64,000 bases of DNA, from assembly GCA_030295235.1 (NCBI GenBank), contig AP026128.1, positions 992,001 to 1,056,000 on the forward strand, read 5' to 3'. Below are positions 5,303 through 44,143 of this stretch, piece after piece; position 1 is the stretch's first letter; each line of letters starts with the position of its first letter. The translations under genes and the position numbers were made by a program. The notes beneath the pieces were generated by a model. It saw only the letters and a program-made list of their open reading frames with translations, ran no database searches and had not been told where the DNA came from. Source of the DNA: Fistulifera solaris. Its lineage: Eukaryota; Bacillariophyta; Bacillariophyceae; Naviculales; Stauroneidaceae.

Positions 5303-5487
5303 GCTATCAATGATTGACTATTTGATGAAACCACCTAGCTGCTCGATTCTCACCATGCATGTTGCACTGTTTTTTATCCGCATTCATGCAAAAGATGCTC
5401 ATGTGAAAACAACAAGGGACAACATAATCATCACCTGCTCCTCGGCATGTGATGGCGAAACGGGCGCAAATAAGATCAAAGCTATCT
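5303..5487. other. PIG-P upstream region
   Basis: Short spacer between the PIG-P start and the 224-bp satellite array. Its last 20 bases loosely resemble the end of a satellite unit (gatcaaa followed by ccggg), which suggests the array edge has decayed here. Confidence 0.4.
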
Positions 5488-7727
5488 CCGGGTACCCCCT
5501 CTGTCCATAAATTTCCCTACGAGAGCTACGTGAAATCTACGTAGACATTCGAAGCGATGCATCTTTCACGCTTATTGCATATTATTGAAGTCACTTTGGT
5601 GTCGATTATAGGTTGTTGGCACTTATGATTTGTGATTCGTGTCGAAGAAGGCGAACAAAACACTGGTGCGGTTTTGACCCGAAAGATGGTGTGATCAAAA
5701 TAACCCAATATCCGGGTACCCCCTCTGTCGATAAATTTCCATACGAGAGCTACGTGAAATCTACATAGACATTCGAAGCGATGCATCTTTCACGCTTATT
5801 GCATATTATTGAAGTCACTTTGGTGTCGATTATAGGTTGTTGGCACTTGTGATTTGTTATTCGTGTCGAAGAAGGCGAACAAAACACTGGTGCGGTTTTG
5901 ACCCGAAAGATGGTGTGATCAAAATAACCCAATATCCGGGTACCCCCTCTGTCGATAAATTTCCATACGAGGGCTACGTGAAATCTACGTAGACATTCGA
6001 AGCGATGCATCTTTCACGCTTATTGCATATTATTGAAGTCACTTTGGTGTCGATTATAGGTTGTTGGCACTTGTGATTTGTGATTCGTGTCGAAGAAGGC
6101 GAACAAAACACTGGTGCGGTTTTGACCCGAAAGATGGTGTGATCAAAATAACCCAATATCCGGGTACCCCCTCTGTCGATAAATTTCCATACGAGGGCTA
6201 CGTGAAATCTACGTAGACATTCGAAGCGATGCATCTTTCACGCTTATTGCATATTATTGAAGTCACTTTGGTGTCGATTATAGGTTGTTGGCACTTGTGA
6301 TTTGTGATTCGTGTCGAAGAAGGCGAACAAAACATTGGTGCGGTTTTGACCCGAAAGATGGTGTGATCAAAATAACCCAATATCCGGGTACCCCCTCTGT
6401 CGATAAATTTCCATACGAGGGCTACGTGAAATCTACGTAGACATTCGAAGCGATGCATCTTTCACGCTTATTGCATATTATTGAAGTCACTTTGGTGTCG
6501 ATTATAGGTTGTTGGCACTTGTGATTTGTGATTCGTGTCGAAGAAGGCGAACAAAACATTGGTGCGGTTTTGACCCGAAAGATGGTGTGATCAAAATAAC
6601 CCAATATCCGGGTACCCCCTCTGTCGATAAATTTCCATACGAGAGCTACGTGAAATCTACATAGACATTCGAAGCGATGCATCTTTCACGCTTATTGCAT
6701 ATTATTGAAGTCACTTTGGTGTCGATTATAGGTTGTTGGCACTTGTGATTTGTGATTCGTGTCGAAGAAGGCGAACAAAACATTGGTGCGGTTTTGACCC
6801 GAAAGATGGTGTGATCAAAATAACCCAATATCCGGGTTCCCCCTCTGTCGATAAATTTCCATACGAGAGCTACGTGAAATCTACATAGACATTCGAAGCG
6901 ATGCATCTTTCACGCTTATTGCATATTATTGAAGTCACTTTGGTGTCGATTATAGGTTGTTGGCACTTGTGATTTGTGATTCGTGTCGAAGAAGGCGAAC
7001 AAAACATTGGTGCGGTTTTGACCCGAAAGATGGTGTGATCAAAATAACCCAATATCCGGGTACCCCCTCTGTCGATAAATTTCCATACGAGGGCTACGTG
7101 AAATCTACGTAGACATTCGAAGCGATGCATCTTTCACGCTTATTGCATATTATTGAAGTCACTTTGGTGTCGATTATAGGTTGTTGGCACTTGTGATTTG
7201 TGATTCGTGTCGAAGAAGGCGAACAAAACACTGGTGCGGTTTTGACCCGAAAGATGGTGTGATCAAAATAACCCAATATCCGGGTACCCCCTCTGTCGAT
7301 AAATTTCCATACGAGAGCTACGTGAAATCTACGTAGACATTCGAAGCGATGCATCTTTCACGCTTATTGCATATTATTGAAGTCACTTTGGTGTCGATTA
7401 TAGGTTGTTGGCACTTGTGATTTGTTATTCGTGTCGAAGAAGGCGAACAAAACATTGGTGCGGTTTTGACCCGAAAGATGGTGTGATCAAAATAACCCAA
7501 TATCCGGGTACCCCCTCTGTCGATAAATTTCCATACGAGAGCTACGTGAAATCTACATAGACATTCGAAGCGATGCATCTTTCACGCTTATTGCATATTA
7601 TTGAAGTCACTTTGGTGTCGATTATAGGTTGTTGGCACTTGTGATTTGTGATTCGTGTCGAAGAAGGCGAACAAAACATTGGTGCGGTTTTGACCCGAAA
7701 GATGGTGTGATCAAAATAACCCAATAT
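5488..7727. repeat. 224-bp satellite array, ten copies
   Basis: Ten head-to-tail copies start at 5488, 5712, 5936, 6160, 6384, 6608, 6832, 7056, 7280 and 7504; each is exactly 224 bp and the total is 2240 bp. Units open with ccgggtaccccctctg and close with aataacccaatat. Copies differ at only a handful of sites: gagagc or gagggc, acatagac or acgtagac, tgtgattcg or tgttattcg, and cactgg or cattgg. These variants occur in mixed combinations, as expected from unequal exchange or gene conversion. Unit 1 has the most private changes and lies at the edge. Each unit has an 86-codon minus-strand open frame, but 224 is not a multiple of three, so the array cannot encode a tandem protein repeat. Confidence 0.97.
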
Positions 7728-7730
7728 CCG

Positions 7731-8281
7731 TGTACCAGAAATATTGGACCAGTTGTATTTCAATTGTGCAGAAAATCTGGCTGGTCCTGAATTTCTGGAC
7801 CAGATGTAGATCATTCATACAGAAAATCCTGTTCGGTCCAGAAATTCTGGACCAGTTGTATTCTCATTAATACAGATAATAATCTGGGCTGGTCCAGATT
7901 TTCTGGACCATTTGTAATTTCATTCATACAGAAAATCTGGGGTGGTCCAGAAATTCTGGAGCAGTTGTATTTTATTCATACAGAAAGTCTGGGGCGGTCC
8001 AGAAATTCTGGACCAGTTGGTATTTCATTCATACAGAAATCTGGGCTGGTCCAGATTTTCTGGACCAGTTGTACTTCATTCATACAGAAAATCTGGGCTA
8101 GTCCAGAAATTCTGGATTTGTAGTATTTCGTTCGTATACAGACAATCTGGGCTACTCCAGAAATTCTGGACCAGTTGTAATATCATTCATACAAAAATCT
8201 GGGCTGGTCCAGAAATTCTGGACCAGTTGAATTTCATTCATTCAGAAAATCTGGGCTGGTCCAGAAATTCTGGACCAGCTG
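7731..8281. repeat. 52-bp palindromic tandem array (first block)
   Basis: About ten degenerate units of roughly 52 bp, each built on the 19-bp odd palindrome GGTCCAGAANTTCTGGACC. A linker reading agttgtatttcattcatac and a short imperfect inverted motif (CAGAAAATCTG) complete the unit. It begins within 4 bp of the end of the 224-bp satellite. Some cores carry ATTTT in the middle yet keep both arms. The same unit forms the block at 59.0-60.6 kb. Confidence 0.93.
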
Positions 8282-8504
8282 TAGGCTGCATTTGATTAAC
8301 GCGTGTTTTCTGTGCACGACGAACGAATAAGTTTTCCATCATGTCTTCTTTACATTTTGAATTCTATTTTTTGGTAAATAAGATGTTGGGTAAAGTTATA
8401 ATGGCATTCGGGTCGGAAAGATTCCGGAAAGGGTGATCGAAATAAGGTTACAATTATGGTAGAACATTCCATGCTCCACAGGGACGAGATATAATGATGG
8501 CCGA
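8282..8504. other. Spacer between palindromic array and pseudogene
   Basis: No gene or repeat recognised. Confidence 0.4.
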
Positions 8505-9115
8505 ACAGCACGCTAACAAAATGATGAGTAAGGACATTCTGCTTCGTGGCGAAAAAGCTTGTTGCCTTCGTTGGATGGTGCACATGAACAGATATGGAAT
8601 TTTCGCATGATGAAAGGATGTCCTTTCGTGCTCCTGGGATGATTTTTCACTTGACGGAGACGTTGATGTTACGAAAGAGTAATCAGGTGATTCTGGGTCT
8701 AGACCTCGCAATATAAGTTGCACCTAAAGATGGATCTCCCCGTATTCAAGTCGAACCTGTTGTACCAGGTGTAAGCATTGCGGGACTGATGTTGGAAGCA
8801 ACGGAAAGATGTGTCGGTAATTTGAATAACACAGATTCGTCCTTGTTGCAGTGGGGACACGCAGATCAGAAAGATCCTGGCGGGCCAAACAATTTTGGTG
8901 GATTGTTTGACATTTTTTGTCGCGTCGGGCGAGGCAGTGCGGGAGACAGAACGAAAACGCATGTTGGCTATATGGTGCGCTTACACAGTGAATGCATTAT
9001 CGGGGATAACTTTTAATTGTGGCTTGCTGATCATGGCGCTTTGGATGAGGGCGAGGGAACAGATTATCCACACATATCACCCGGTTTCGATTGCGAGAAA
9101 CAATCGAAAAGGTGC
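8505..9115 (+). pseudogene. Relic of the bacterial-type beta-helix gene
   Basis: A decayed paralogue of the intact minus-strand gene at 16694-18587. Pieces in several plus-strand frames match it in order. LLRGEKAC is near 8540; FHLTETLM, then NQVILGL, near 8650-8700; DGSPRIQVEP near 8730. A 75-residue stretch at 8789-9016 follows, about three quarters identical, including GGLFDIFCRVG and CIIGDN. Matches to ADHGALDE and YPHISP run to about 9115. Internal segments are missing, the first 200 residues and last 150 residues are absent, and frames change repeatedly, well beyond the single-base breaks seen in other genes here. It lies tail to tail with the intact DUF6824 gene, the mirror image of the second locus. 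Confidence 0.85.
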
Positions 9116-9238
9116 GTAATCTATAATGCGGGAAAGGAGCCTAGAGTATAAAGAACAATCAATTGTAAAACGTAAAACACAAAACACTAATAACTAAAAA
9201 GAGATTTACCCCTTCTTGAGTTGTTGCTAACAATGGCA

Positions 9239-11389
9239 TTAGATCGTTGCGGTTTCGGTAGCGGCCTCAACCTTTTCTTCGTCCTTATCTGTTTCCTTTT
9301 CACCGTTAGTCTCAGTGTCGTCTTTCTTGCCTCCAGCAGCCGGAAGAGAAGCGGGGTCTGGCAACAAGACATTCACTCCAAGAGATTTCGGATCCGCCTT
9401 TGCCTTATCGTCCTTCTCGTCGTTGGTCTTTTCACGGAGCGCCTGCGACGTTTTCTCCGCCGCTTTCTTATCACCAACATCAATCCACTTTCCAGTCTTC
9501 TCGTCTTTTTTCAAGAAACGACCGGGTGGATCTCCATTCCGGATGGCGCGAACAATCACGCGGGCGACCGAAGGCTTTTGAATTTTCGGCGCTCGAACGT
9601 AGTCAGGCCGGTGCAAAGCGACGATATCTCTGAATCGTTTGTTTCCTTTGTGGTGATTCGTCAAGCCGCCACGACCAAGTAAAATGTCATGGTCCGTAAC
9701 CAAGATGTTACCCTCGTCATCAACGGCGTTCGGAGGAAGCCCCGCCGTAACAAGCTCCGTGCTTTCCGACTTCTTTTTGGCCGCCTGTTTCGCGGCTGAG
9801 GGGACCGACACACGGATCTTCGGTTTGTAATCTGCAGCTCCCACAACAGCGCTATCAGTAGTTTTTTGTTTTTTGGCCTTGCTGCCTTCTTCGGCATCGT
9901 CGTCACCGTCTTCGTCGTCTTTACCGCCGCGGAGGGACTCGCGGAGTGCCTGTCGATCACGCTTCTCTGCATTCGATCTTTCACGGAGACCCTGCGAGGT
10001 CTTTTCAGCTGCTGTGCGATCTCCCACATCGTACCACTTTCCGTCGTCATTCTTTTCAGGAATCTATGATAGTAGCAAAAAGAGTGAGAGATTGCCTCTG
10101 TCATTCCGCATAGTCTACTGTCCTGTCAACTAATAGTACGTACCTGCCAGGAGGGGTCCCGGTTCGAATGGCGCGGACAATCTTTCGAGCGACACCGGGC
10201 TTGTCCATTTTGACGGCACGAATGTAATCGGGACGATGCAAAGCGATAATGTCACGGAATCGTCGATTTCCAGGATGACTATTGGTCATTCCACCACGAC
10301 CAAACAGCACATCCCAATCATTTGGTTCATCAATGGGCTCAGTTCCGGGTTGTGCCATATTTTCCGAAGGCAAGTCCGCAATCCCTTCACTGATATTATC
10401 TAACGGGTTTCCCAGGGCATTGTACGCAATCAAATGAATTTCCTTTTCGAGAAAGACTTCGAATACGAAAATAAGTGAAAACTGGGCGGCTTCTGCTCCT
10501 GAAAGCAACTTCCAGTTCACCTTGTCATTTGCTTCCGCCAAACGAACCAGGAATCTCGAGTTCTGAGATGCAACTGCCGCAGGAACTTTGTCCTTATCTT
10601 CCTCATACAGTTCAGCCTCATCCAGTCCCTTGAGCAGCTCGATAGCAGCTTGTACTCGGTTCTCAACAGTCCTTGTCGTTGACGATACCAAGAGCGATGC
10701 GAGACTAAAAACGGTGCGATTTCCTCCCTGCTGCTCGTACATCTTTTCAGTCTCAGCACTGTCATCACAAAGAAACAAGACAACATCTTTGGGATTGGGA
10801 AGAAGGGCTTCATCTTCGGTGGCTTTGCGCTCCAATATTTCCTTGAAATGACTATAGGGACTCAGCGTCAAATCACCCAAGTCATCGTTTTTGAACTCTT
10901 CGACCATGGCACCCGCCAGTGCATCTTTGCATCTTGGTCGGCAACTTCAATCCAGCTCTTGTCTTCTTTCTTAAGAAAGCGTCCTTGCGACTTCATGAAA
11001 GGCTTGGGGACATCTTTGAGACCCGCCAACTCATACTCCTTGCCATTCTTGACGAGATTGAAGAGGTTTTCGGCAATTTCCATGGCCTCACTGGCGGTGG
11101 AAGGAGGTGCTTTGCCTTGCAACTTCCAGATGATGCGATGCAGTCTCATCATATCTTGCAAGAGGAGATTCGTGCGGTGTCCGGCCGAGCCTTCTCCTAC
11201 AATCACATCACGGAATCTCGGTTTCAGCGTAGAGCCGTCTTCAATATCCGAAGCGGTAGCATCATCTTCCTTTACGGCAGTCTCGACGTCTTCTGTCTCT
11301 TCTGTTTGAGTCTCTTCCGTTGCGACGGGTGTTTCTTGTTTCTCTTCCGGTTCTTTTGCCTTGGCGCCTCGTTTCGCTCGACCTTTCAT
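9239..11389 (-). CDS. Protein with three DUF6824 domains
   Basis: Large diatom-type protein of about 690 residues. Exons 10144-11389 and 9239-10063 flank an 80-bp GT-AG intron (donor GTACGT). DUF6824 is abundant in diatoms and of unknown function. The signature D-[VI]-L-x-GRGG-x-TN-x-H-x-GN-x-x-FR occurs near residue 360 (DVLFGRGGMTNSHPGN) and again near 540 (DILLGRGGLTNHHKGN). Each is followed by a PPGRFL and W-x-DVGD-x-x-A-x-EKTSQ tail; in the first the tail crosses the intron. A degenerate first copy spans about residues 55-160 (FRDVIVGEG, then GRFLKKEDKSWIEVAD). Both termini are acidic or lysine-rich, as in nuclear proteins. One A is missing from short A runs at two places (near 10926-10928 and 10053-10056); allowing these, the length is exactly 691 codons. 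A relic copy lies at 16.0-16.45 kb. Confidence 0.82.
10064..10143 (-). other. Intron of the DUF6824 gene
   Basis: 80 bp. Donor GTACGTACT and acceptor CTATCATAG interrupt the PPGR|FLK motif of the second domain. The third domain, which has no intron there, shows the uninterrupted form and confirms the splice. Confidence 0.85.
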
Positions 11390-12162
11390 GATGACGAATG
11401 CGGATGATGGATGATGACACGTGAATAATGAAGGATGGGTTCAATCAACCATGAATGCGAATGAATTCAATCAACAACGAAGGAGGACTGGTTTTTATCA
11501 TTCAATCACCTTCGTGAACTGACTCGTTCTCTTTTTTTTTGAGCGAGCGATTCTTTTCGCAAAAGCATGCGTTGAAAATTTCATCCACGATCACGATGAA
11601 ACCCGATCATTTCGTTTGTTTACGTAGAGTCCAGTAGTTTTTCTACAGGAGGACGGCTTTTTCATTCGGAAGAATGACCGTGTCGAATTCACATTTTGTC
11701 ATCCACGAATGTGCTACGACAGTCCCAGTATGTTTTTCTACATCATACTTGTAAAGCCATACTCTTTTTGAAATTTTGAACTTGACTCTACAACGGTAAG
11801 TAGAGGTAACAGACGTACGACGTACGAGCTTTGACGTGTTTCTTAGTAATGAATGAATCACGCTTTGACTAGGTCACGAGCCTCTCCAATTCAATTGAGA
11901 GATACTACAATTTTCCTTTATAGTAACTATCACCGTAGGGCTTCTACAGCAAGCTACATCAACGGTTATTTCAAATTTTTGCCGCCGCGTCAACAAAACA
12001 CCATCGACGAGCGAAAGATGATGCGAAGATGAAGTCCTTGATCGCTTGCTTTACAAGAAATTCCCATCAACATTCAACCTCTGTGCTGCTTTCTCAGGAG
12101 AGCATGCGTACAGTATGACGTACCTGGTTAAGCACAAAACAAGCAACGACAAGTGAGAAAAA
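11390..12162. promoter_or_regulatory. Intergenic region between divergent genes
   Basis: About 770 bp separate the starts of the DUF6824 gene (minus) and a hypothetical gene (plus), so both promoters should lie here. No specific element is recognised. The 72-codon minus-strand frame at 11643-11861 is not supported. Confidence 0.4.
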
Positions 12163-13089
12163 ATGACGAAAAGACCTGTTCGAGGAGTGTTCGGGGGCGG
12201 CTGGCACTGGTTGAGTCGGAAGAAACGCTCGAGTCCTGCAAAGGCAGTCTCTGTGACCCCCAAAACTCTTTGCAGCGAGGATGACGAAGAAGAATCGGCC
12301 CTATTGGCATCGACTGGCACGCAGTCTTCGCAAGAGCACAGTACGTCCGGGTTCACTCCCGTAGCCAAGAAGCGCCGTAACACATTTGGTAGTCGCAAAG
12401 CGCCTCAGATTTATCATTCAGTCTCCGATGATCTGTTCTTCTCGCCAAGTATTCTCTGTCGGAAGAGCACAATAAGAGTGGAAGGTAATGCGACGAGAAG
12501 GAAAGATCAAAGTAAAGACTCGTCTCCCTCGAACGAATCATCGAGTTCATCGCATTCAGAAAGCCAACTCAGTAGACAATTTGATTGCGAGGGGCAACAG
12601 AAATCACAGGAAATGGCGGACTCAACATTATTTAGTGTCTCTGCGAATGAATCCCTTAATTCGGGAAAATCTTCCATTATAGGGATTACTCAGGGTAAAC
12701 TTCAGAATACGAAAAACATTTCACAAGACAAGGAATTTGATTTTGACGACTCCACAACAATTCATTCCGCTGTCAATCGTACAGAAATGAAACAGCCCTC
12801 CAGTACCATGACGTCGCTCGACGAAGCACGAGCCTATTTCGCACAACTGGACGCTTCTCCGATCGTCATGGAGGCCGTCGATGACCGAGAACGACATCGT
12901 AACGTGGTACGCACGCGGCGTCGATTGCTTCCGACTCATCCGACCGTGAGGAAAGAATACAGAGAGTACGTACAAGCCTGCGAATGTGCAAAAGTGCCCG
13001 CCATGCCGTTGGAAGAGTTTGCGCGGCATCGAAAATTATTCCAAGCGAACGATGTAATATATGAGGGATTTTTGGATGTAGAAGATTGA
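12163..13089 (+). CDS. Hypothetical protein with conserved-looking C terminus
   Basis: Intact frame of 308 codons. The first 210 residues are Ser-, Lys- and Asp-rich and probably disordered, starting MTKRPVRGVFGGGWHWLSRKK. From about residue 215 the composition changes to a compact helical region: SLDEARAYFAQLDASP, then RTRRRLLPTHPTVRKEYREY, then a segment ending MPLEEFARHR. It resembles a short conserved C-terminal domain after a disordered tail. I do not recognise the family. The gene converges on GAA1, with stops only 41 bp apart. Confidence 0.7.
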   Translation: MTKRPVRGVFGGGWHWLSRKKRSSPAKAVSVTPKTLCSEDDEEESALLASTGTQSSQEHSTSGFTPVAKKRRNTFGSRKAPQIYHSVSDDLFFSPSILCRKSTIRVEGNATRRKDQSKDSSPSNESSSSSHSESQLSRQFDCEGQQKSQEMADSTLFSVSANESLNSGKSSIIGITQGKLQNTKNISQDKEFDFDDSTTIHSAVNRTEMKQPSSTMTSLDEARAYFAQLDASPIVMEAVDDRERHRNVVRTRRRLLPTHPTVRKEYREYVQACECAKVPAMPLEEFARHRKLFQANDVIYEGFLDVED

Positions 13090-13130
13090 AGCCACGTTTC
13101 ATAGTTAATTTTTATATCTTTATCAAGTAT

Positions 13131-14904
13131 TCAGGACAAGTAAAGGATTGTCAAAAGAGCATGCAGCGGCATGTATGCGTATCGTACGTAGATCGTGTAG
13201 TCTGGAAATACTCTTGGGACTAAAAGGATGCACGGCATTGTGATCCCAATCAGCCCGATGGATAAAGCATACAGTATAACGGATCGTGCCCGAAGTATAG
13301 CTCGTTTTGTGTCTTCTCCGTCACAATTATTAGAGTCATCAAAGGACGGAAAAGCAATCAGCGGAGCCCAAAAGATTGCAGACGGAAAAGCAAGCGACAC
13401 ATGTCCAAAGGCAATGGGGATATGCACCAGCAAAGCCGCGAAACAAGCAACAAATTGAACGGTCTGTTTCGATAACCGTCGCAATTTCAAACGTAAGAAG
13501 AGCGTCATTGTCACGTAAATTAACAAGAAAGCGACAACAATCATCTCCTTGTCCATCTTCGACACGACGGCGTGAAAGGTCGCCACGCAAAATAGCGTCA
13601 AGAATATTGTGGGTTGGACCGTCGGCCAGTGGAAAGCGGGGATATCCACAAGCACCAAAGTGACAGCCCGGACCACTAATGGTATCAATAACAGCAAATT
13701 AGGAATTAAATATTCCTCATGTTTGACGAAACGTTCCGGGGACGCCAACAAGTAAAGGGATGTGCTGTGATGCAGCCGTTCGTGTAGATTAGAAAGCGCT
13801 CGCAGTACATATTCCATTCGCTGGATGAAATTTGAAGTAAAGCGATTAGAATCAACACCAGGTGCAAACAAGGCTTGAATGGTCAAAGCATCGATTCCAC
13901 GATCCAGTGCCGTCGCATGAGGTGGGTACGGTCCCAACAAAAGCGAGTATTCAAACGCCAACAGTTCTAGCATCTTCGGTAACCATTCATTTACTTGCTC
14001 GACTTGCAAAGGAATGATTTTCGACTGAACATATTTTTGAATTTGCTTGGCTTCTTCGCGATATGGATGCATAGTCATGACAGCCTTATTGGTTTGTATG
14101 AGCAGGGACCGCGAATACACATACATGGCCAAGAAGACCAAATCCATGTTGGGTAATACACCCCGTCTCCCCTTGCGGTAAAATGCGTATTTCAGATTGT
14201 ACAAGAGCAATGGAGGACACGATTCCTTTTGGTGCTTGCGGCTGAACGTCTACAACGAGCAAATTTCGCAGCAGGAAACCATTCATATCAGGCGGCAGCG
14301 GCGGGCGAAAGGGCGTTTCGTGATCAACTGGCCCTAAATAGACGTCCAAGAATCGGTTGACAGTAGAAGTTAGATCCATTTTTGATTCCACCGTACTCGT
14401 AACGATGAAAAGAGTCTTGGCAATCCATTTGGCCTGTTGTAGTTGCTGAATAAGATTCAACACGGATACTTGAAACACATTCGACACGCTCGACGCAGTC
14501 CAAGGAATAACTAAAACAATCGCTTCTGAAACAGGACGGACCGCCACTTGTGTGGGTGTAATTTTGAGGATTTCGATACCATCGGGATGTTGTGTACAGG
14601 AAATTCGTGCATTCCGAGAGACGGCAGCACATGGAGAGCGTCGTTTCCATCCGGTCTGTACAGTGAGAGCCTCGAACTGCCCATTCCTATTAAAATACGA
14701 CGGATCTAACGAGTTTTCGTCAATGTACCATCTGCGTGGTTGCATGCGGCCTGTAAGGACGGAAGCGACCGGATGCAAAGCATGCCAGAGAATCCCGATG
14801 AGATACGGAGCGACGAGCAGCAAGGGCAGTTTACGTCGCCATTTAGGTGTCGTGAATTCCTCTTTATTTGGTCTTTCGCCATGTTCCCGCTTTCTACTGA
14901 GCAT
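13131..14904 (-). CDS. GAA1: GAA1 subunit of the GPI transamidase
   Basis: GAA1 is a multi-pass ER membrane protein of the complex that attaches preformed GPI anchors to proteins. About 590 residues, close to the family's usual 550-620. An N-terminal membrane helix (about residues 25-48, LPLLLVAPYLIGILWHAL) is followed by the lumenal M28-peptidase-like region. The family's NLD-type motif appears as RGVLPNMDL, followed by GIDALTI. A loop with NLHERLHHSTSLYLL and SPERFVKHEEYLIPN precedes several C-terminal membrane helices. The two halves lie in different frames; one A too many in the AAAA at 14227-14230 accounts for the break and gives exactly 591 codons. PIG-P of the same pathway lies 8 kb away. 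Confidence 0.82.
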
Positions 14905-15015
14905 TTAATGCGAAAAGATACTTCGTTTTCGATAAAGACGTTTGTCATCAGAAGGAGGGGTCGTCGTCATGGTGATGACAAGAGGAAATTATTGGTGATG
15001 ATCTTATGTGAGCAC

Positions 15016-15312
15016 GTGCTTTTTCACGTGTCCCGAAAATGTGGGTGTGTGCTTTTTCACGTCTCCCGAAAATGTGGGGGTGTGCTTCGAAATGGGGGTG
15101 TGCTATGTGGGGGTGTGCTTTTTTCACGTCTCCAGAAAATGTGGGGGTGTGTTTTTTCACGTGTCCAGAAAATGTGGGTGTGTGTTTTTTCACGTTCCCG
15201 ATAATGTGGGTGTGTGCTTTTTCACGTCTCCCGAAAATGTGGGTGTGTGTTTTTCACGTGTCCAGAAAATGTGGGCGAGTGCATTTTTCACGTCTCCAGA
15301 AAATGTGGGCTC
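15016..15312. repeat. 33-bp minisatellite, about nine copies
   Basis: Units read approximately gtgctttttcacgtctcc, then cgaaaatgtgggtgt, and vary between 32 and 34 bp; the third copy is badly degenerate. Both strands are open across it. The period is near 11 codons, giving CFFTSPENVGV-like repeats on plus and KKHTPTFSGDV-like repeats on minus. Length wobble between copies and lack of flanking coding sequence argue against translation. Confidence 0.9.
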
Positions 15313-16039
15313 TGCGAAACCACGTTCTTGTGCGAAACGGCAAGAATGTTGTACCAGGTAAAAATAAAATGTTGCCCGTTTCAATGTACAAGCGATGTAA
15401 GTGAGAGTGATTTCCTGTAAGGACCAGGAAAGGACGTTAAAATTCTGCCTCTCAGTACAAATTTCTACGTAGCGCTTACGGCGAGGCAGAATTTTAACGT
15501 CGTTTCCTGGAGGTCACGAGAAAAAAGATGGCACCATTAACCGCTCGAGGCGAGAAAAAGTCTTTCCTTACAGAAGCGCGATGTTCCAAGACAGAAGACG
15601 GAGAGAATTCATTAAGCAGCATGCCCTCGTAATTTTCACGACGAATTTATTTTCGTTTGACCGCCGGTCGTTGTAAATGCAGCCATCGAGCATTTTGCGG
15701 GGAACTATGGATTTTTGAATTTAAAGCTGGTTCAGAGGTCATGCGTCATGCGCTACAGTGTGAACATTGACCGCAAGTTGGTCAATATCAAGCCAGATTA
15801 CTGTTTGGCACGTGTGACCCACGGGAACTACATTACAACAAAGGATTGCTTGATGATATTGCTCGTGTATTTCCGGTCGCCGAAATAGTTGCTACTTGTC
15901 CTCACAAAAGAGCTAATGATGTATTTGTCTTTTCGGAATTGTCAGTATGAACGATATTGTCGATGAGAGTTCGATTCCTCGTAGGCTGGTGAACTTCGTG
16001 GGTCGAGAAGGATGTTAGGAGAAGATTATTGTGATGAAA
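15313..16039. other. Spacer with a strong hairpin, no gene
   Basis: Apart from the hairpin at 15424-15510, no coding sequence or repeat is recognised between the minisatellite and the DUF6824 relic. Confidence 0.4.
15424..15510. repeat. Near-perfect inverted repeat, 28-bp stem and 31-bp loop
   Basis: The left arm at 15424-15451 and the right arm at 15483-15510 are reverse complements at 27 of 28 positions (core gacgttaaaattctgcctc). The pairing can be extended outward by a gacc/ggtc pair with a small bulge. It could be a tiny MITE, a small-RNA precursor or a transcription end signal; the sequence does not decide. Confidence 0.85.
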
Positions 16040-16452
16040 GTAAATTGCGGATTTCACACTTAAGATAACTTAGTGTCGTCGACAGCAAGGACTGTTGACA
16101 TAAGAGCTGCTAACAGGTTTGGCTGAACTGCATGAAGAAGATGAAAAGAAGGATCTTGCGGTGGTAGCAACTCAAAATTCTATACTCCTGGTTCGTGCGA
16201 TGGAAGTGGATTGGCGGATAAACAGTTTCCAGAAGCTGAATTGGTTCAGTTTTCGCCCGATTTCCTAATCAATATTTTTCTCGATAATCAGAGTTATTTG
16301 ATGGCGTACAATGCGTTGGGAAGCTCGCTTGACGACAAACTTAAACCGATTTCAAAAACTCTCGGTGTTAACGTCTTATTGACAGACCCCGCAATCTTTT
16401 GCAGCTGCGGACAAACCAAAGAATGAGAAACTACTGCTACCGCAACAATCTT
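16040..16452 (+). pseudogene. Relic of the DUF6824 gene
   Basis: Plus-strand fragment matching the intact gene at 9239-11389. An alpha-helical segment (AELHEEDE, then VATQNSILLVR, then YLMAYNALGSSLDD) matches AELYEEDK, VASQNSRFLVR and HLIAYNALGNPLDN. After a large internal loss it jumps to the extreme C terminus (SKTLGVNVLLTDPA matching KSLGVNVLLPDPA), ending in ETTATATI against ETATI. Both complete DUF6824 domains and the N terminus are gone. It sits tail to tail with the intact beta-helix gene, the inverse of the arrangement at 8.5-11.4 kb. Confidence 0.85.
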
Positions 16453-16693
16453 CTGTCACCGTCGCGACTAGTCGTCATTAAGGGGCGATCTATTCTTATT
16501 GTTTTACGTGTTAACTGCCTGCTCTCTCTACTCTTTGTCCTTCATCGCATTGTATATTACGGAGTTCCCCCTATTCCCGGTCGAGTAATCAGGTTCCACA
16601 ATTCAGCAAATGACACCGAAATTATAGCCGATAAGGTATCGAGCCTTGTGCTGTCGTTGTTAGTCTTTTGTCTGAAACGACCGCGCTCTTAAA
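16453..16693. other. Spacer between convergent relic and gene
   Basis: Short 3' flank. Parts (attgttttacgtgttaac) loosely resemble the spacer between the relic and gene at 9.12-9.24 kb, as expected if the block was duplicated. Confidence 0.35.
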
Positions 16694-18587
16694 CTAGATC
16701 TGTTTGATAAAATAGCCCTCACCGATCCGCTGTAGCCGTACCGATCTCCCTTTTTCAGCAGCTTGAGTACCTTCATGATTCACAATCGAATGGATGCCAC
16801 CCAAGTTGTCCAGCTTTACTGTAAAAGCATTGAAAATGCGAATATTGGATTGAATCGGATGTTGGATAGCAGTCGAAATGACTACTGGATCGTTCCTAAA
16901 ATTGGAGTAAATCCCAGGTGCATATACGGTGTGGTCCGTGACGTCGTGGTTCACAAAGTATCCTCTAAACTCGTCCTTTGCAAAATCGTGACTTGCACAG
17001 TAAGGAAGCTCGCACTGATAAAAATAAACGACACCATGATCTCCTTTCCATATGACCTGGTGACCATTGGCATGTTCAACGGCCAAACCAGCAATATGAA
17101 TATTGTCGCCAGCTACTTCGATTCCGGTTTCAACTCGAAACTCATTGTTCTCTGTTTGCCAAAACACGGGTGATATGTGTGGATAGTTTGCTTTCTCGTC
17201 CTCATCCAGAGCACCATGATCAGCTCGCCACAGCCACAGATTATCCCCAATAATGCATCCACTGTGTAAGCGCACCATAAAGTCGACATGCGTTTCCCTT
17301 CTGTCTCCCGCTCTGCCTCCGCCGACGCGACAAAAAATATCAAACAATCCACCAAAATTGCCTGGCTCACCCGGATCTTTCTGATCTGCGTGTCCCCACT
17401 CCAATAAGGACGATTCTGTGTTATTCAACTTGCTAACGCTTCTTTCCGAAGCTTCCAACATCAGCCCCGCAATGCGCACACCTGGTACAAAAGGTTCGAC
17501 TTGAATACAGGGAGATCCATCCTCAGGTGCAACCAGCGTCGCGAGGCCCAGGCCCAGAATTACCTGGTTAATCTTTCGTATCATCAGGGTCTCCGTCAAA
17601 TGAAATATTCCAGGAGCCAAAACAACATCTTTTCCTTCGTCTAACGCTTCTTGAATTCGACTGATGGGGTCCTCAAAACTGATTACTCGAACAGAGCGAA
17701 AATCACGAATTTGTTCATCTGCCCCATCCAACGAAGGGCCACAGGCTTTTTCACCGCGCAGCAGTAGAGGTACTCTCAACTGGAACCACTCTTGCCCGTT
17801 CTCAGCAGTGGTTAGCGTGATGTATGGCTTTTCCATGCGAAGTTTGGGCTGTTCTACCACAGTAATCGCAGGTTCTGTATCACTGCCAGGATGAGGAGCC
17901 GGCACACGTCCACTACATCCGACATAAACCAGGCTCCAAGCCCCTCCTAACGCTAATGAGACCGCGAACGTTCAATGCTTATTATAGCGAAGTTGTCTTA
18001 CCTGTAACTTCTCCTCTCATTTCCACGTTTCGAAGAAGAAACTGTTGTTGACCACCAGCTCGGAGAGAACCGCCGACGTAGGCATTTGCCAAATGTCCAC
18101 CACTAGCGTATGCTGCATGATCATGAAGAAGTAAATCCGCATCCACGTGCACACGTCTCAACGGTGCGGCTTGACTCACCGCCCATTGAAGAGATGCGGT
18201 ACGAAAATTCTCGGCGCTCCTCCAGAATGTATCCAGACTCGTCCCAAAAGGAGGATGCAAGTGTTTGTTCAAAGCCGGAACGAAAGGACCACATTGAGGG
18301 AACGCAACATCTGTTGGACGAGATCCCAATCCTAATAGCTGCACGTAATATCCGATTTCAAAGTTGCGATCTAAGAAGTATTCGCCTGGCGCAAAGAGCA
18401 AGGCGTGACGCTTCGGGCTGAAATGGTTTTCACACGTAAAAGTTTGTTTGACTTCGTCCCAAGGATCTTGTGTCTTCTCAATTTGACTCAAAATAAAAAG
18501 AGGGTCGTCTGAAGGATGGAACAACAGGACCGAGTCGGGCCAGTTAGGAGGATTCGGTTCTGGCGCCCCAAACAACATGGTTGACAA
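16694..18587 (-). CDS. Bacterial-type right-handed beta-helix protein
   Basis: Predicted product of 612 residues from exons 18002-18587 and 16694-17946, separated by a 55-bp intron (donor GTAAGA). It resembles a family common in actinobacteria, often labelled adenylyl cyclase or pectate-lyase-like without proof. The shared order is FAPGEYFLDRNFEIGYYVQLLGLG in outline, DTFWRSAENF, WAVSQAAPLRR, ASGGHLANAYVGG, QQQFLLRNVEMRG, then a second half with GLGLATLVAP, GGLFDIFCRVGGG and WRADHG. Repeated short strands fit a parallel beta-helix. No signal peptide is evident at the chosen start. The intron shows it is expressed from the nuclear genome rather than contamination. A relic copy lies at 8505-9115. 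Enzymatic role unknown; bacterial origin is inferred from the family's distribution as I recall it. Confidence 0.8.
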
Positions 18588-29090: not shown

Positions 29091-29284
29091 TTCGCTTCGT
29101 TTGTGATAAAAGGGGAACCTCTTAAATTGATATGATGTTGCGTTGCAATGGAAGCAATACTTGTAGTTGTAAGAATCGACGTTTCGATCGATAGCAACAA
29201 TGCTTCGAATGAGAAAACAAATGGAGAATGGAGAGAAACGAAAAAGTGTGCGAATGACGCAGAAAGTTCGCTCGTTTTTTTTTT

Positions 29285-29414
29285 GGGAGACTTCCGTTAG
29301 GTCTCCAACCAGGGTGAACCTCTTCCGATAGCTCTCCCGTTAGGAGAGACGTTAACTGACTACATTCAACTTTACAGTAGAGTACGCGCCATTGGATGTG
29401 GTACTAATTACTTA
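29285..29414 (+). repeat. Left terminal inverted repeat of the MULE
   Basis: 130 bp starting gggagacttccgttagg and ending gtggtactaattactta. It is identical to the reverse complement of 35016-35145. It contains two internal small inverted repeats, GGAGAC/GTCTCC and CTCTCC/GGAGAG. Confidence 0.97.
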
Positions 29415-29799
29415 AAGGCCTTCCATCCATCATTAGTTCTACTTAGGTCACGCACAATAACCGCACAATCGTTCGCGTTGTGCGTTTGTTCCGTTCCGAC
29501 TGCCGACAAGATGATCAGAACGCTGCATTCCTTATTGTCATAGTTGCCCTTCCGTTCCTACTGTTGCTCTTTTACAACATTAACATGTCGATCATTGAAG
29601 CGAAGGGCGGCGATCATTAATCCGCGATTATGCAAAAATATGGGGCACTTCCTCCAACCGGTCCGTATGATTTTGAAAAGTTTCTCTATGACAAACCGAT
29701 CCCTGAGGATGATCACGAGGAGCTTCTCCGCAGCATCGCTTTTGTGCGATCGAAAGCTCTTCACGAGATGTCAGCAAGCACGGAGAAAGCCCTTGCTAC

Positions 29800-31231
29800 G
29801 TGTGCACTTGCTGCAAAACGTTCTCACTTAAGTTCAAGGAAGAAAACGGCGAACTTCGATTGCTACACGACCATCCTAGTACTAACTTCAGGCACAGTTT
29901 GTTTTGCACTCCAACAAACGACCTCCCAAAGGACTGCCGCAGAAAATCAATGATAGTGCAGAACATTCCTGCTGTTCAAGACTTCTTCAAAACATGCTTC
30001 CAGGCACCAAACTTCGACAGTCATGCTACTCGCAAGAATCTCAACGCCGTCCTCAGGAAAGAGGGTTTCGACATCGAAGTTGGCCCGACAATGCATTCAA
30101 ATCTCAAGAAACACTTCCGTGAGGTCTACCGAAAGGATTTGTTGATGTACAATGAGCTGTTGGCCCAGTATCTTCGGAAATATGTCGAGCTAAATCCAAA
30201 TGCCTCCGTCAATTTAGAAACTGACCAGAACTCATGCTTTTTTCGGTCAACTGTGTTCATTGAGAATGCCGCGCACTTCTTTAGAAATGCCTGCATTCCT
30301 GCAATCTTTTAGACGGAACACACATCCGTATACCCGAACACGATGGAATTGGAGTCCCGATCATAGGGGTCGATGGAAATGGAAGTAACATTCCACTTGG
30401 TTTTGGGTTGATTCCCTCGGAAAACAAGCAAGGGATGATATATATCCTTCTCATGATGTATCAAGCTGGGTTCAATTTGAAGAGTTTCCAGTATTCACTG
30501 ACCGAGGACACATTCTACCGCTGTCCGAGCGTTGGCAGAACATTATGGACTGGTTGTTTCCGTGAAGTATTGCTTGATTCATATTCTTGAAACATTTACC
30601 ATCTATTCAATATCAATCAACGATCGCTGAGAGGGCAGAGCGGTCGCTTGGTTTATGCGCGAGATGCAAAGCGCTCCAGATGTTAACGCCTTCTTGGATG
30701 CTGCGAAGAAGCTTGTCAAAGCGCTTCCACAAATTGAAGAAAACGAAACTCTTAGTACCGGTGCAGCGAATTGTTATCTATGTTCTTGGGACAATTCATC
30801 CTACTCATTGGACTGTGTTTGGAAATACACCGAGTCAACATGAATCTATGTGGGAGCCCCTATATTTTACCTATCTAGCTGAAGTGAATGGCTTCACAGA
30901 GATAAGTGGAGACGTCGGCGAATGGAGGTGGTTGCTCAACGATCACGTGCCAGTTGGAAACAAGTTCCCTTTATATGGTTTCTGTTCAACAAATCATGTC
31001 GAATCGGCCCAGCAGTGGCTTCTACATCATGAAGTGAGGACTAATACCCCTCCACTAGCCATTTCTAACTTTTTGATGGCGGCTGCCGAATCTCTTCGAC
31101 AATTTCGAGATGAAATAACAACCAAATCTGCTAGGTTCCTCACCATATACTTTCGAAGCTTGCAAGATACAGGCAATGAAGATCTAGATTTTGTAATAGA
31201 GGATGCTGAAGGATGCCCGATGGCAGTTTGA
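29800..31231 (+). pseudogene. MULE transposase, frame-broken
   Basis: Segments in at least three frames. The first open frame (29800-30312) has a cysteine pair near CTCCKTF and a long helical region ending FFRNACIPAIF. The next frame continues directly into the catalytic DGTHIRIPEHDG and VDGNGSNIPLG. A third carries the TDRG aspartate, after which the frame at 30587-31231 holds the C-terminal catalytic half, including VFGNTPSQHESMWEPLYFT and LAISNFLMAAAESLRQFRDE. A SWIM-type C-x-C, C-x-H finger follows in another frame near 31.3 kb. About four frame changes are needed, at 30.3-30.6 kb and around 31.2 kb, so as read it cannot be translated whole. Confidence 0.75.
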
Positions 31232-31815
31232 AATTCAAATTGTACGGCTGAAAAGCACAAGAAGACGGAGTATGTTACTTATGAACCCACGAGCACTCCG
31301 TCCCTGTACTGCTCCTGCAGTAGAACAGCGATGCGGGAAATCTACTGCGGCCACATCAACCTTGTTTCACGTACAAGATCCTCAACTTGGCCCTCAATCC
31401 CACCCTCTGTGTTTTCGCGAATTCTACGAAGAGTTTGGAAAAGTTCCGACAAGTGGTGATCGTCAGCTTCCTTACAGAGTTTCTTAACAACTATCCAGCG
31501 ACTTGACGTCCCGGGATTTGGGGATATCAAGCTTGCTTATCAATCAGAAAACATTTATCCATCACCAACTTACACTGACAAGCTTAACTCGGGGAACAGA
31601 ATAATCAGTAATGGTGAACCGGGACCACGTAAGTCAAAGAAAAAGAAGCAATCGGCGCTGGAATCAGCACGAATGACAAAGGAGTATGAGCCAAGTTCAA
31701 AGAACAAGCTCAGTCGAAATAACGATGCAATAGCAGAAGCGATTGCCGCCCGATGGTCTGTTTGATTTTGGGACCAAACCAAAGGCGGAACACATGCAAC
31801 AGCTAGAATCAACTC

Positions 31816-33405
31816 TTGGACGCTAGCGTAGAGACGGCAAGCCCTTACCTCGGCACTGCTTTCACTGCAGATCACCGAATCACACAATTCGACAGTGTCT
31901 GGACTACCTCAAAGATGATCGAAGGTACATGGATCCTGCATTACTTGAAACTGGCGCAATTCTGGTCAACCATTTCCCAACATGCGTCATTGACATGGAT
32001 GCAGGAATTACTTCTGAAGATTTGGACAACGATGATACCTCCGGGAGGACATGGCCTTCACAATATTGACAAGATTGGCTTAGTAGAAGACTCTGATGCA
32101 GCCAATGCCATTGTCCAGTCACGGATTTTAAAGCTTACTGGAGAAGACGCTGCAGAAATTCACGCTGAAGACGACAACGAAAATAACTATCTTCTGGATA
32201 TGGACCTTGCTCCGTCAGGTAGTAACCGAGATATTGTAGTAATTATTCGTGACAAGGATTACACGGAAAGAAGAAGTCACGAACAAGAATTGACCATGGT
32301 TGATGATGTCGAGGTAGGCATCCATGACGATTCCCGTCTGAACAGTGCACACTCGGGTCATCTGTCGACAATTCTAGAGGATGAAGATGTGGAACCAAGC
32401 ACCGCACATAATGCTTTTGCCTCAAGTCCCGCAACAACAGAATATTCAGTAAATGAAATGCCAACAACTAGAACAAAGAGGAGATCCAAACAAGTAACGA
32501 ATTTAAAAGCGCAGAAGGCAAGTCCATCTACCGCAAAGTCATCGATATTGAAGACAGCGACCGCATCCAGACCGAATTTGAAACCACCGCCGACCACAAC
32601 AGCTTGTGCTTCCAGTCCAGCAACAACAGATTTTTCATTAGTCAAAATGGCAACGAGAAAGAGGAAAACGGCCGAAACAGCCACCAAATCAAAAAGCTGA
32701 AGGAACAAGTCCCGCCACAACTGATTCGTCAATCTTTGAGAGGCCGACCATGAAGAGTCAAAATCTGAAGCCACCACCTGATATCAGAGCTCATGCCTTG
32801 ACTATCGAAGTCTTCAATGAATGAGAATACAACACAAAAAAGGAAAAGATCGAAACTGACAGCAAATTCCAGAGCCAAAGGCCCGACTCATGCCCGTAAA
32901 AAAGAAGTTGAAACCGCCACCGATTGCAGAAGCAAAAGCAGGAAGTCCCGCCACAGCAGTTTCTTCCATAGTTGAGATGCCAACTATGAAGAGGGGTAAT
33001 CTGAGAGCACTGCCAAGATCTCATTCGAAACAGTCCAACAACCGAAGTATCACGATTCCTGAAGATATGATTATAAAGATACCGAAGACAGAACCCACTA
33101 ATGCAAGTCCCGCCACGTCTGCTAGTGACGATTCATCACATGTATTTAAAAGGCGATTAGACATCCAAAAGAAGAATGCAAGTCCCGCCAAATCCGGTAA
33201 TCTCAGTGACGATTCGTCGCATTTCCTGAAAATGCCGCTAGATCTGCGAAGAAAGAACTTGGCACAAAATGAAGCGCTCTCAAGTTCATTTTCAGTGGGT
33301 ATTCCGAAAACCAGAAGAACTCGTAGAGCTATAACAAGTCCCGCTACTGCCACTAGTGGGACCTCATCACAATTCTTGAGAACACCCTTCGACCTGAGAC
33401 GGTAA
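31816..33405 (+). pseudogene. MULE accessory ORF with SPAT-like repeats
   Basis: Two main open frames (31816-32700 and 32890-33405) are separated by a gap with stops. The N-terminal part has no known domain. From about 32.4 kb the sequence repeats a unit centred on SPAT (ASSPATTEYS, ASSPATTDFS, GSPATAVSS, ASPATSASDDSSH, ASPAKSG, TSPATATSG), roughly 35-60 residues apart, each followed by basic, Lys-rich text. At DNA level the motif caagtcccgcca recurs. This probably forms a disordered linker between transposase and protease. Confidence 0.6.
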
Positions 33406-34099
33406 GATTGTAGATCCCAGAAATGAAAATCAATTTTCATTACGTCGACAACAAGTAAGGCAAATTGGAGTAGCCCCTTTGCAACCCCCAGTCATTACTG
33501 ATGAACCATCAAAGATCGTATCCTATTTTTACGACACAGCTTATCCATTTGTGGGAACCATTGAGCAATTAAATTGTTTGGTTCAAGAACACGAGTTTGA
33601 TATTCCAGAATCATTTACGGAAAACGGAAACAAATGATTTAACGATGAAAAGAAGGGCTTCAACCCGAAAACGCAAGGCGCTAAAACCAGCGAGGACTTG
33701 TGAGTGAGAACAATATTGCAATCCACGTGCGCTGAATACTCTTGCAGAGACAGCAAAAGGAAAGAAGTGGAATAGAATCATTTATCACTGTAGGGACAAG
33801 AAAGAATGGAAACGATCTGATTTACAACAAAGAAGATGCCAGGGGATCTCTTCGGTCACTCCTTTTTGCAATCCAGTGCAAAGGGCGTTGATAAAGGTCG
33901 TGAGTCGTCACGACCTGAAGAGGGAAAGAAGCATCATATCAAGGTGCTAGTGGTGCCACGGCATCCATAACCAGTGAATGCCTTGAAATTATGAACTCGC
34001 AATGTTATTTCAATGACGCGATTGTGAACAGTTTCCTTGAAAGCATAACAAGCAAGACCGTGAACGGATGAGGGAGTTATTGCACACCCGTCGTATGTC

Positions 34100-34649
34100 A
34101 TGAGTAATCTGTGGGATTCCGCCAACCAAAATATTAAGAGAGAGGGTAGACTGCAGCTTAGTTCAGCGTTTGTGGCATTGAATTCTATGACAAAATCGAA
34201 CAATTTGGGCATTCATTTATTCCCTATGTGCAAGGAGAGGCACTGGTGGTTGATGGTGGTTGATGCCGATAATCGAGTTATTTATTCGCTCGACTCCCTC
34301 GAAGATCCGGACGATCACTACTCTAATGCTGTCTGGCTTTCAGGTTTATTTAAATTCGCGTGCGGTGAGGCAGCAATTAGAATGCGCGTCAACAAGCGAG
34401 CAGCAGGAATCAACATTACCCGATTTCGCTCCGTGGGAATACCAAGAAATGCGTCTTCCCAATAAACTATTGCAACATGATGGCCATAGTTGCGGACCAT
34501 ATGTATGTTTTTATGCGGCGACAATTCTGAAACATGGTCGACGTGCCCTCAATGAGAGGACATGGTTCCTTGACTCTATTTCGGAGATTGGAGTCGGAGA
34601 TGATCTCCGACCTTTTGTATTTGATGTTATGTTTCAATTGGCTGAATGA
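34100..34649 (+). pseudogene. ULP1/C48-type cysteine protease of the MULE
   Basis: The SUMO-protease-like fold is visible from its catalytic motifs. His lies in ERHWWLMVVD (near 34.24 kb), Asp in VIYSLDSLED and the oxyanion Gln plus catalytic Cys in LLQHDGHSCGPYVCFYA (near 34.48 kb). The His/Asp half is in one frame and the Gln/Cys half in another, with a single frame change between about 34.38 and 34.42 kb. ULP1-bearing MULEs are known in plants (the Kaonashi type), where the protease is thought to be carried by the element. Confidence 0.8.
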
Positions 34650-34754
34650 CACGTATAGAGTAATGTGTGATATTAATCAACCAAGTCTAGTTTGAAACTG
34701 AAATTGTGTAGATTGGGTTTTGATTATTTACACGAAGTAGTTTTCGACGAAAGC

Positions 34755-34930
34755 CTTGATCGGTGGAAGGTCACGTAGGCTGGGTTTTTCTTTATTGGAA
34801 GGTCGCGCTCGCTGCATCAGGGTCACGTGAGGCTGGTTTTTCTTTATTGACAATTGAGAGCGGTCGCGCTCGCTGACTTTTCTTTATCAAGAGCGGTCGC
34901 GCTCGCTGACTATTGTTTATTGAGGATTTG
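34755..34930. repeat. Subterminal direct repeats of the MULE
   Basis: Three copies of ggtcgcgctcgctg alternate with two copies of a ggtcacgt-aggctgg-tttttctttatt block. They lie just inside the right end, between the protease and the inverted repeat, a position where transposases of several families bind. Confidence 0.8.
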
Positions 34931-35015
34931 GTTATCTTAGAGGGGTGATTCATGAATCATCCGGGACTGTCATTCATAAGGCTTTGTTACTTTATCGAGC
35001 AACCTAAGTAGATTC

Positions 35016-35145
35016 TAAGTAATTAGTACCACATCCAATGGCGCGTACTCTACTGTAAAGTTGAATGTAGTCAGTTAACGTCTCTCCTAACGGGAGAGCT
35101 ATCGGAAGAGGTTCACCCTGGTTGGAGACCTAACGGAAGTCTCCC
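35016..35145 (-). repeat. Right terminal inverted repeat of the MULE
   Basis: Reverse complement of 29285-29414 without a mismatch. It is followed by a run of 12 T. Confidence 0.97.
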
Positions 35146-35805
35146 TTTTTTTTTTTTGAGAAAAAGTCACATCATTATTTACAGTGGCCTCAAATGTAAA
35201 CAGACCACGATTGAATTGCAGTCGTGAGATAAAAACCGAATGCTTTCTTGTTCGTCCAATCACATCGAGAAAGGCACAATCCACCTCTAGCAATCATTTC
35301 AAGAGAGAAGAACTCAACCCAGCTAAAAAATTAGAAATGCACACTCGCCACTCCCATCATTCGGAAATGAGACGGAAACAAAAACAATGAGATCTACGTG
35401 GCCACAACTTTGAGAACAAAGCGAAGCGTCGTGCAGATGCTGATAAAGAAAATAACTAATTATTTGACCAGTTTGCTTCCAAGAAACACAAAGTGATTTT
35501 CGCTTGTCGTGGACCACTTGATCGTTCACAACAACAAGAATCCTTTCGAAACAACACAGAATATGAAATCACTATGGCTCAAAGTGTAACCTGGTATTCG
35601 TTTTTCGCTGTGACTGCGTCTCAGTCATGAGTTATGAGGAGTCATGAATGACAATGACAAAAAACGGCAAAAAGACATTTTTCTTCGCAGTTCAAGTCAA
35701 GGTCATTCATTGATCATTATTGTTGTTTAAATTTCTCATTTATCATTTGTTTACCAGTAATTTATCATGTTTGAAATGAATAGAAATCGATAATCACGCA
35801 AGAGA
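35146..35805. other. Intergenic stretch, nothing supported
   Basis: 660 bp between the transposon and the sulfotransferase-like gene; its promoter should be here. Short open frames lack any domain. Confidence 0.4.
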
Positions 35806-43664: not shown

Positions 43665-44143
43665 GCACTTCAGCCATGAATCAAAATTCTTTCGAGCGAC
43701 GGATGTTACCTACAAGTCGTTCGATCGCCCAGTTTCTTGAACGTTAGTTGTCATTGTTGCAATGAAACAGTCTGGTTTCAAAAAAAAAGTCTTCAACATT
43801 GTTGTCATTATAAGTCATTATACGTCGATATATTTACGTCGAAGAGCCTTGTAAAACGTTGTCTGTCTTATTTTACTATAGACCCAAAGTGTTGGTTTAC
43901 GGAGACCACGACTGCATTTCAGTCATGAATCAATATTGTTTCGAGCGACGGATGTTACCTAGAAGTCGTTCGATCGCCCAGTTTCTTTAGCTTTAATTGT
44001 CATTGTTGCAATGAAACAGGCTTCAACAGTGTTGTCATTATAAGTCATTATACGTCGATATATTTACGTCGAAGAGCCTTGTAAAACGTTGTCTGTCTTA
44101 TTTTACTATAGACCCAAAGTGTTGGTTTACGGAGACCACGACT
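43665..44143. repeat. Tandem duplication of about 240 bp
   Basis: Copy 1 (43665-43913) and copy 2 (43914-44143) share a head (catgaatcaa, then tttcgagcgacggatgttacc) and a long tail ending gtttacggagaccacgact. A 20-bp stretch near gtctggtttcaaaaaaaaag is present only in copy 1. The start of a third copy (catttctgtcatt) follows at 44144. No coding role is seen. Confidence 0.9.

Follow-up and report, generated by a model that had tools for sequence, protein, structure and literature searches.

Full-length and cut genes mirrored around GAA1 in Fistulifera solaris: the probable scar of a small inversion with staggered breaks

The window analysed here is a 64-kb stretch (positions 992001–1056000) of contig C13 in the 51.7-Mb, 61-contig genome of the diatom Fistulifera solaris, which is described in the part of the source drawn on here as an allopolyploid with 42 homoeologous chromosome pairs (PMC5935921). 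In keeping with that species, two sequences given in an F. solaris paper (PMC13276009) have exact matches in this genome: a primer, which occurs once, on C39, and a guide target shared there by a pair of homoeologous genes, which occurs twice, on C7 and C8. At this locus the homoeologue of C13 is contig C14, to which it aligns in six pieces longer than 2 kb (C14:952225–984401) with order and orientation kept and identities of 83.4–88.7 per cent; synonymous divergence between the two is 0.22–0.41 over eight gene pieces. A beta-helix (GH55-like) gene and a DUF6824 gene, called X and Y below, lie on the left (L) and right (R) sides of a core of about 4.7 kb with two genes, and each side carries one full-length and one wrecked gene: an X relic with Y on the left, a Y relic with X on the right. 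The features are as follows, in window coordinates unless a contig is named.

8448–9087, plus strand: left X relic, limited to part of exon 2, interrupted by two in-frame TAA stops and carrying internal deletions
9115–9238: left X–Y intergenic spacer, homologous to about 16441–16566
9239–11389, minus strand: full-length DUF6824 gene Y, with an inferred 80-bp intron at 10064–10143
12163–13089, plus strand: core gene for a hypothetical protein, an open reading frame with no Pfam match at E 0.01
13131–14904, minus strand: core gene for GAA1 (GPI transamidase subunit), in two open reading frame pieces
15016–15309: member of a genome-wide 33-bp minisatellite family, lying towards the core from the right relic
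15418–15527: palindromic MITE-like insert
15528–16068, plus strand: sequence that adjoins the truncated end of the Y relic and is for the most part also on contig C9
16069–16440, plus strand: right Y relic, a middle part joined to the last codons
16441–16566: right X–Y intergenic spacer, a copy of the left one
16694–18578, minus strand: full-length beta-helix (GH55-like) gene X, two exons with an inferred 55-bp intron at 17947–18001
C14, about 958253–958477: left X relic, shorter than the C13 copy
C14, 964576–964872: right Y remnant, about 300 bp, without the inner edge

On C13, X is open across its inferred intron for 609 residues, as expected from the sequence-only reading, which had called the right-hand beta-helix gene intact and had also named the gene families (beta-helix, DUF6824, GAA1) correctly. 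The C14 copy (C14:964985–966885) has two frame breaks, each due to a length difference of one base, with its first stop at residue 222 of 612, and dN/dS between the two copies is 0.08 in exon 1 and 0.20 in exon 2. Exon 2 aligns over residues 9–380 (E 1.6e-31) to PDB 4pew (of the 4pew, 4tz1 series), labelled 'Putative secreted protein' in the PDB table; neither exon has a Pfam match at E 0.01. We take 4pew to be a GH55 beta-1,3-glucanase of Streptomyces, and exon 2 is alike to it in sequence; at the position that we assume to hold the catalytic glutamate of GH55, however, an alignment by eye places a threonine in X. A structure predicted for exon 2 from the single sequence was useless (mean pLDDT 30.7). 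A protein search with exon 2 gave four matches, all of them in X itself (C13, C14) or in the left C13 relic, and scans of prokaryote and viral contig collections with X and with GAA1 found no relative; GAA1 itself matches PF04114 (E 2.2e-19) on its 13134–14210 piece.

Y carries two strong matches to PF20710 (E 7e-34 and 1.6e-17; 116.6 and 64.2 bits against a curated cut-off of 27) and a weak third domain at 17 bits, below that cut-off; no mention of DUF6824 was found in the literature searched. It had likewise been called intact, and it is indeed full-length, but as assembled on C13 its reading frame is lost soon after exon 2 begins, directly past the inferred intron; numbered from the start of the second open reading frame, the first stop falls at residue 388 of 529. 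The C14 copy reads 530 residues to its end, apart from a frame step near 10,920 that is conserved on both contigs with purifying selection on both sides, and that could be an unrecognised intron, a boundary between two proteins, or a ribosomal frameshift. Three pieces of Y give dN/dS of 0.07–0.18 between C13 and C14, so that across X and Y together (0.07–0.20) the frame breaks must be late, if they are real. The open genes alternate, X being open on C13 and broken on C14 and Y the reverse, which may reflect reciprocal loss between homoeologues or assembly error. The C13 break in Y bears on the present state of the genes, not on the edges described below.

Comparison of the two sides bore out the proposal that these loci mirror each other around a 4.7-kb core that holds GAA1 and a hypothetical gene. 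The arms 8448–10692 and 17876–16069 are collinear inverted copies, with homology far above chance, and six pieces lie in mirror order.

8539–8606 and 17764–17696, inverted: 81 per cent identity
8612–9087 and 17634–17162, inverted: 83.9 per cent over 477 bp, E 3e-144
9115–9179 and 16561–16500, inverted: 74 per cent
9336–9388 and 16408–16355, inverted: 78 per cent
10409–10617 and 16322–16121, inverted: 68 per cent, E 2e-15
10663–10692 and 16098–16069, inverted: 83 per cent

When the whole window was compared with itself under a low-complexity filter, the only other inverted pair of at least 60 bits between two different places was formed by the 130-bp ends of a transposon-like insert. As had been proposed, the right side holds a relic DUF6824 gene, inverted and collinear with Y; it lacks the roughly 1 kb holding both strong domains. 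Left X relic, Y, core, right Y remnant and X follow in the same order on C14, and since the mirror is present on the homoeologous contig, the event that produced it predates the split of C13 and C14. A palindrome created by collapsed or chimeric assembly is ruled out, given that the pieces are only 68–84 per cent identical and that the mirror is also on C14.

The limits of the duplicated stretch fall within genes. On the left, the relic can be matched to X as far as 8448 on C13 and 958253 on C14 and no farther, which places the X-side edge in the zone 17865–17876 of X, the same within about 10 bp on the two contigs; X exon 1 and some 24–27 codons of exon 2 are absent from both left relics. The outermost homologous stretches score well above shuffled sequence, C13L 8440–8538 with z 8.2 against C13R and 4.5 against C14R (0 of 300 shuffles as high), and C14L 958251–958341 with z 6.6 against C13R (0 of 300) and 6.2 against C14R (1 of 300). 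The next stretch outward has no detectable relation to X (z −0.6 on C13, −0.2 on C14), and the sequence outside the edge is common to C13L and C14L (z 22). This edge, being the same on both contigs, is older than their split.

On the Y side, the right relic matches Y only as far as 16069, opposite 10692 and about 700 bp short of the start of Y. For those 700 bp and about 500 bp farther upstream, four of four comparisons gave no counterpart in C13R or C9 (z −0.4 to 1.2), so that the right relic shows no signal of a retained N-terminal part of Y; this edge is defined on C13 and C9, the C14 remnant ending short of it. Further copies of X exon 1 or of the N-terminal part of Y were absent from the best candidates scored in DNA searches of the genome itself. 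What is duplicated thus runs from a point within X to a point within Y, and the mirror is one without two whole two-gene blocks. Had a partial copy of it been placed elsewhere, both ends of that copy would be cut and its source would retain X and Y whole; here, each locus instead pairs one full-length gene with one cut gene. On C14, a 29-bp inverted match between the left outer flank and the right inner spacer was considered as a breakpoint duplicate and set aside, as it also occurs near 43905–43937 of the window and was therefore taken to be a dispersed palindrome.

The locus is probably best read as the mark left by a small inversion with staggered breaks. The ancestral order would have been right flank, X, Y, hypothetical gene, GAA1, left flank. 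One of the breaks would have been a staggered one spanning some 2.9 kb, with one end within X (near 17870) and the other within Y (near 10692). Filling in of the overhangs, the chemistry presumed for breaks of this kind, would have left the overlap on both ends, and the piece from the overlap through GAA1 would then have been rejoined in reverse. One end would keep X at full length with Y cut, and the other Y at full length with X cut, so that a single such inversion would yield the alternating pattern directly. The cut copies would have been dead from birth, or nearly so, and would have decayed since, with the full-length copies under selection for most of that time. On this reading the inversion would precede the separation of the two subgenomes, to be followed by a presumed gene conversion that made the C14 Y tails alike and by a C9 copy that would derive from the right relic or share its ancestry.

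Studies of Drosophila have detailed inversions of this kind. Staggered breaks have been given as the origin of inversions along the D. melanogaster–D. yakuba split (PMC4965816), and in D. subobscura gene fragments are duplicated at inversion breakpoints (PMC5080602; PMC4965816). In those papers, as far as the sections drawn on here go, a truncated copy decays at one breakpoint and a functional copy is preserved at the other (PMC5080602; PMC4965816). The locus described here likewise has an inverted duplicate at both ends of a segment, as do the inversions O4, O8 and E12 of D. subobscura and those of the D. melanogaster group in the same sections, and its genes are cut and full-length on alternate sides, comparable to the gene fragments at one end and functional copy at the other, where truncated copies decay by point and length mutations. 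Membership in the class is probable, with the difference that the ancestral arrangement is here a reconstruction, the core spans only about 4.7 kb and two genes, and the host is an allodiploid diatom with the scar on both homoeologous contigs. Nothing was found, in the literature searched, on inversion breakpoints or inverted-duplication pseudogenes in diatoms, and the cases compared come from Drosophila.

Some observations count against the inversion. Deletions after a full duplication could also remove 5' parts, and repeat-mediated exchange may have been involved, given that related minisatellites lie near both edges of the duplicated stretch. As assembled, no contig keeps both genes working: C13 has a broken Y and C14 a broken X. 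A stagger of some 2.9 kb also seems long for breaks of this type.

The sequence-only reading had explained the locus as a full inverted duplication of the X–Y block followed by opposite loss of one gene per side. Its inverted duplication, its one wreck per side and the later decay all stand, in that each side does pair a full-length with a wrecked gene and the relics have acquired stops and additional deletions, the latter not the same on C13 as on C14; the second whole copy does not, no trace of X exon 1 or of the N-terminal part of Y having been found in the relics, although an old and complete deletion may have removed them. Homology stops inside both genes, at an X edge that is the same within about 10 bp on the two contigs, and the scheme needs a duplication plus two independent removals of a 5' half, one of which happens to lie at the outer limit of its arm and the other at the inner limit of the opposite arm. 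It is therefore regarded as rather unlikely. A two-step history, in which a partial inverted copy with both X and Y cut was placed beyond the core and a crossover between the arms then inverted the core and swapped which locus was whole, reaches the same end state and draws on arms that appear to exchange sequence, as the grouping of the C14 tails described below suggests; it takes two events to do what one could, the intermediate is not known here from any relative, and it is judged a little less likely again.

Counts of change along each lineage of X are in favour of the inversion. Over the 477-bp X stretch, unique changes number 45 in C13L, 28 in C13R and 20 in C14R, with two sites differing three ways. 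The ratio of nonsynonymous to synonymous changes (N:S) is 29:16 in the relic, 8:20 in C13R and 10:10 in C14R. Against a neutral expectation of 72–77 per cent nonsynonymous, depending on the assumed transition bias (p values computed at 73.8 per cent), the relic is not different from neutral (p 0.17), and the full-length copies pooled (18:30) depart from it strongly (p 1e-7). A pairwise dN/dS of 0.26 for the relic might be read as constraint on it, but the lineage counts show near-neutral change. A 3' deletion junction of the left relic that is common to C13 and C14 is weak and was left out of the argument: 2 of 1000 shuffles reach it, 11 of 1000 for a narrower piece, and parts of it also align elsewhere in X.

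The same stretch bears on timing. Relic and C13R differ with dS 0.396 (155 codons) and at 15 of 56 fourfold sites, and C13R and C14R with dS 0.364 (158 codons) and at 14 of 64. On these values the duplication seems to predate the subgenome split by only a little, with a large margin of error. On the Y side, homology of C14R to Y ends near 9410 and the C13R deletion edge, placed by eye, lies at about 9390–9410; this proximity hints that loss of the DUF6824 domains is also older than the split.

The arms appear to have exchanged sequence since. In the Y tail, identity is 90.7 per cent between C14L and C14R (321 aligned bases), 75.4 per cent between C13L and C14L (313) and 65.8 per cent between C13L and C13R (231), and a tree of 203 ungapped columns groups C14L with C14R at bootstrap 100; the two other topologies tested have p-AU of 0.025 and 0.021, values for which the program warned that replicates were too few. 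The likeness may have arisen by gene conversion from one arm to the other or through a copy made anew. Because the C14 tails became alike after the subgenome split, the arms might even be a still live site of recombination at which the GAA1 core flips between lineages or even cells, and full-length and cut copies swap ends, which is very improbable.

A relative of the right relic lies on contig C9, where C9:154760–153821 matches 15589–16535 at 79.6 per cent over 978 bp and has the same internal deletion. Of 65 matches in a protein search with the Y open reading frame, those to residues 90–156, outside the domain, are otherwise only on C9, and the rest are domain matches; the C13 right relic is itself not among the 65. 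Dispersed relics had been named beforehand as the finding that would tell against the mirror, and to the extent that the right Y relic has a sister on C9 they were found, but the arm pieces are collinear. That the right relic is an independent dispersed copy from C9 and lies outside the mirror is scarcely credible even with the shared deletion, since the stretch is continuous with an X–Y spacer common to C13L, C14L, C13R and C14R, a Y tail also stands at this position on C14R, and C10, the homoeologue of C9, carries other sequence there. It is simpler to suppose that the right relic gave rise to the C9 copy. Between the same flanking genes C10 has about 440 bp of other sequence, and the relic sequence may have been lost there. 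The gene beside the C9 relic, which by eye we take to be CNNM/DUF21-like, occurs once on C9 and twice in tandem on C10 (C10:165023–166955 and 167384–169247).

An inversion scar of this type is easily mistaken for a duplication with reciprocal loss, and a simple test between them is whether homology stops inside genes on alternate sides. If the ancestral order proposed here is true, the locus records a staggered-break inversion in an allodiploid diatom, and its two homoeologues allow later decay, gene conversion and dispersal to be compared.

The sequence that adjoins the cut end of the right relic (15528–16068) was not found in the 40 kb of C14 examined and has no detectable homology to the N-terminal part of Y. 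Next to it, the palindromic MITE-like insert, present on C13 and absent from the C9 copy of the neighbourhood, occurs in at least 39 other places among the best 40 of 401 candidates scored. The 33-bp minisatellite has 924 matches in the genome (475 forward, 449 reverse, with at most three mismatches; none in the control), and with so wide a distribution it is uninformative as breakpoint evidence; odd-numbered contigs are commoner among the matches listed, perhaps reflecting one subgenome. Outside the left arm, ten copies of a 224-bp tandem repeat with 98 per cent matches (5487–7736) adjoin a 52-bp minisatellite (7735–8283), and opposite 5487–8283 C14 has only about 730 bp between flanking matches. 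Farther along the window, the transposon-like insert (29285–35145) has identical inverted ends of 130 bp, and C14 has only about 570 bp opposite 29272–35452, so that this is probably an insertion on C13.
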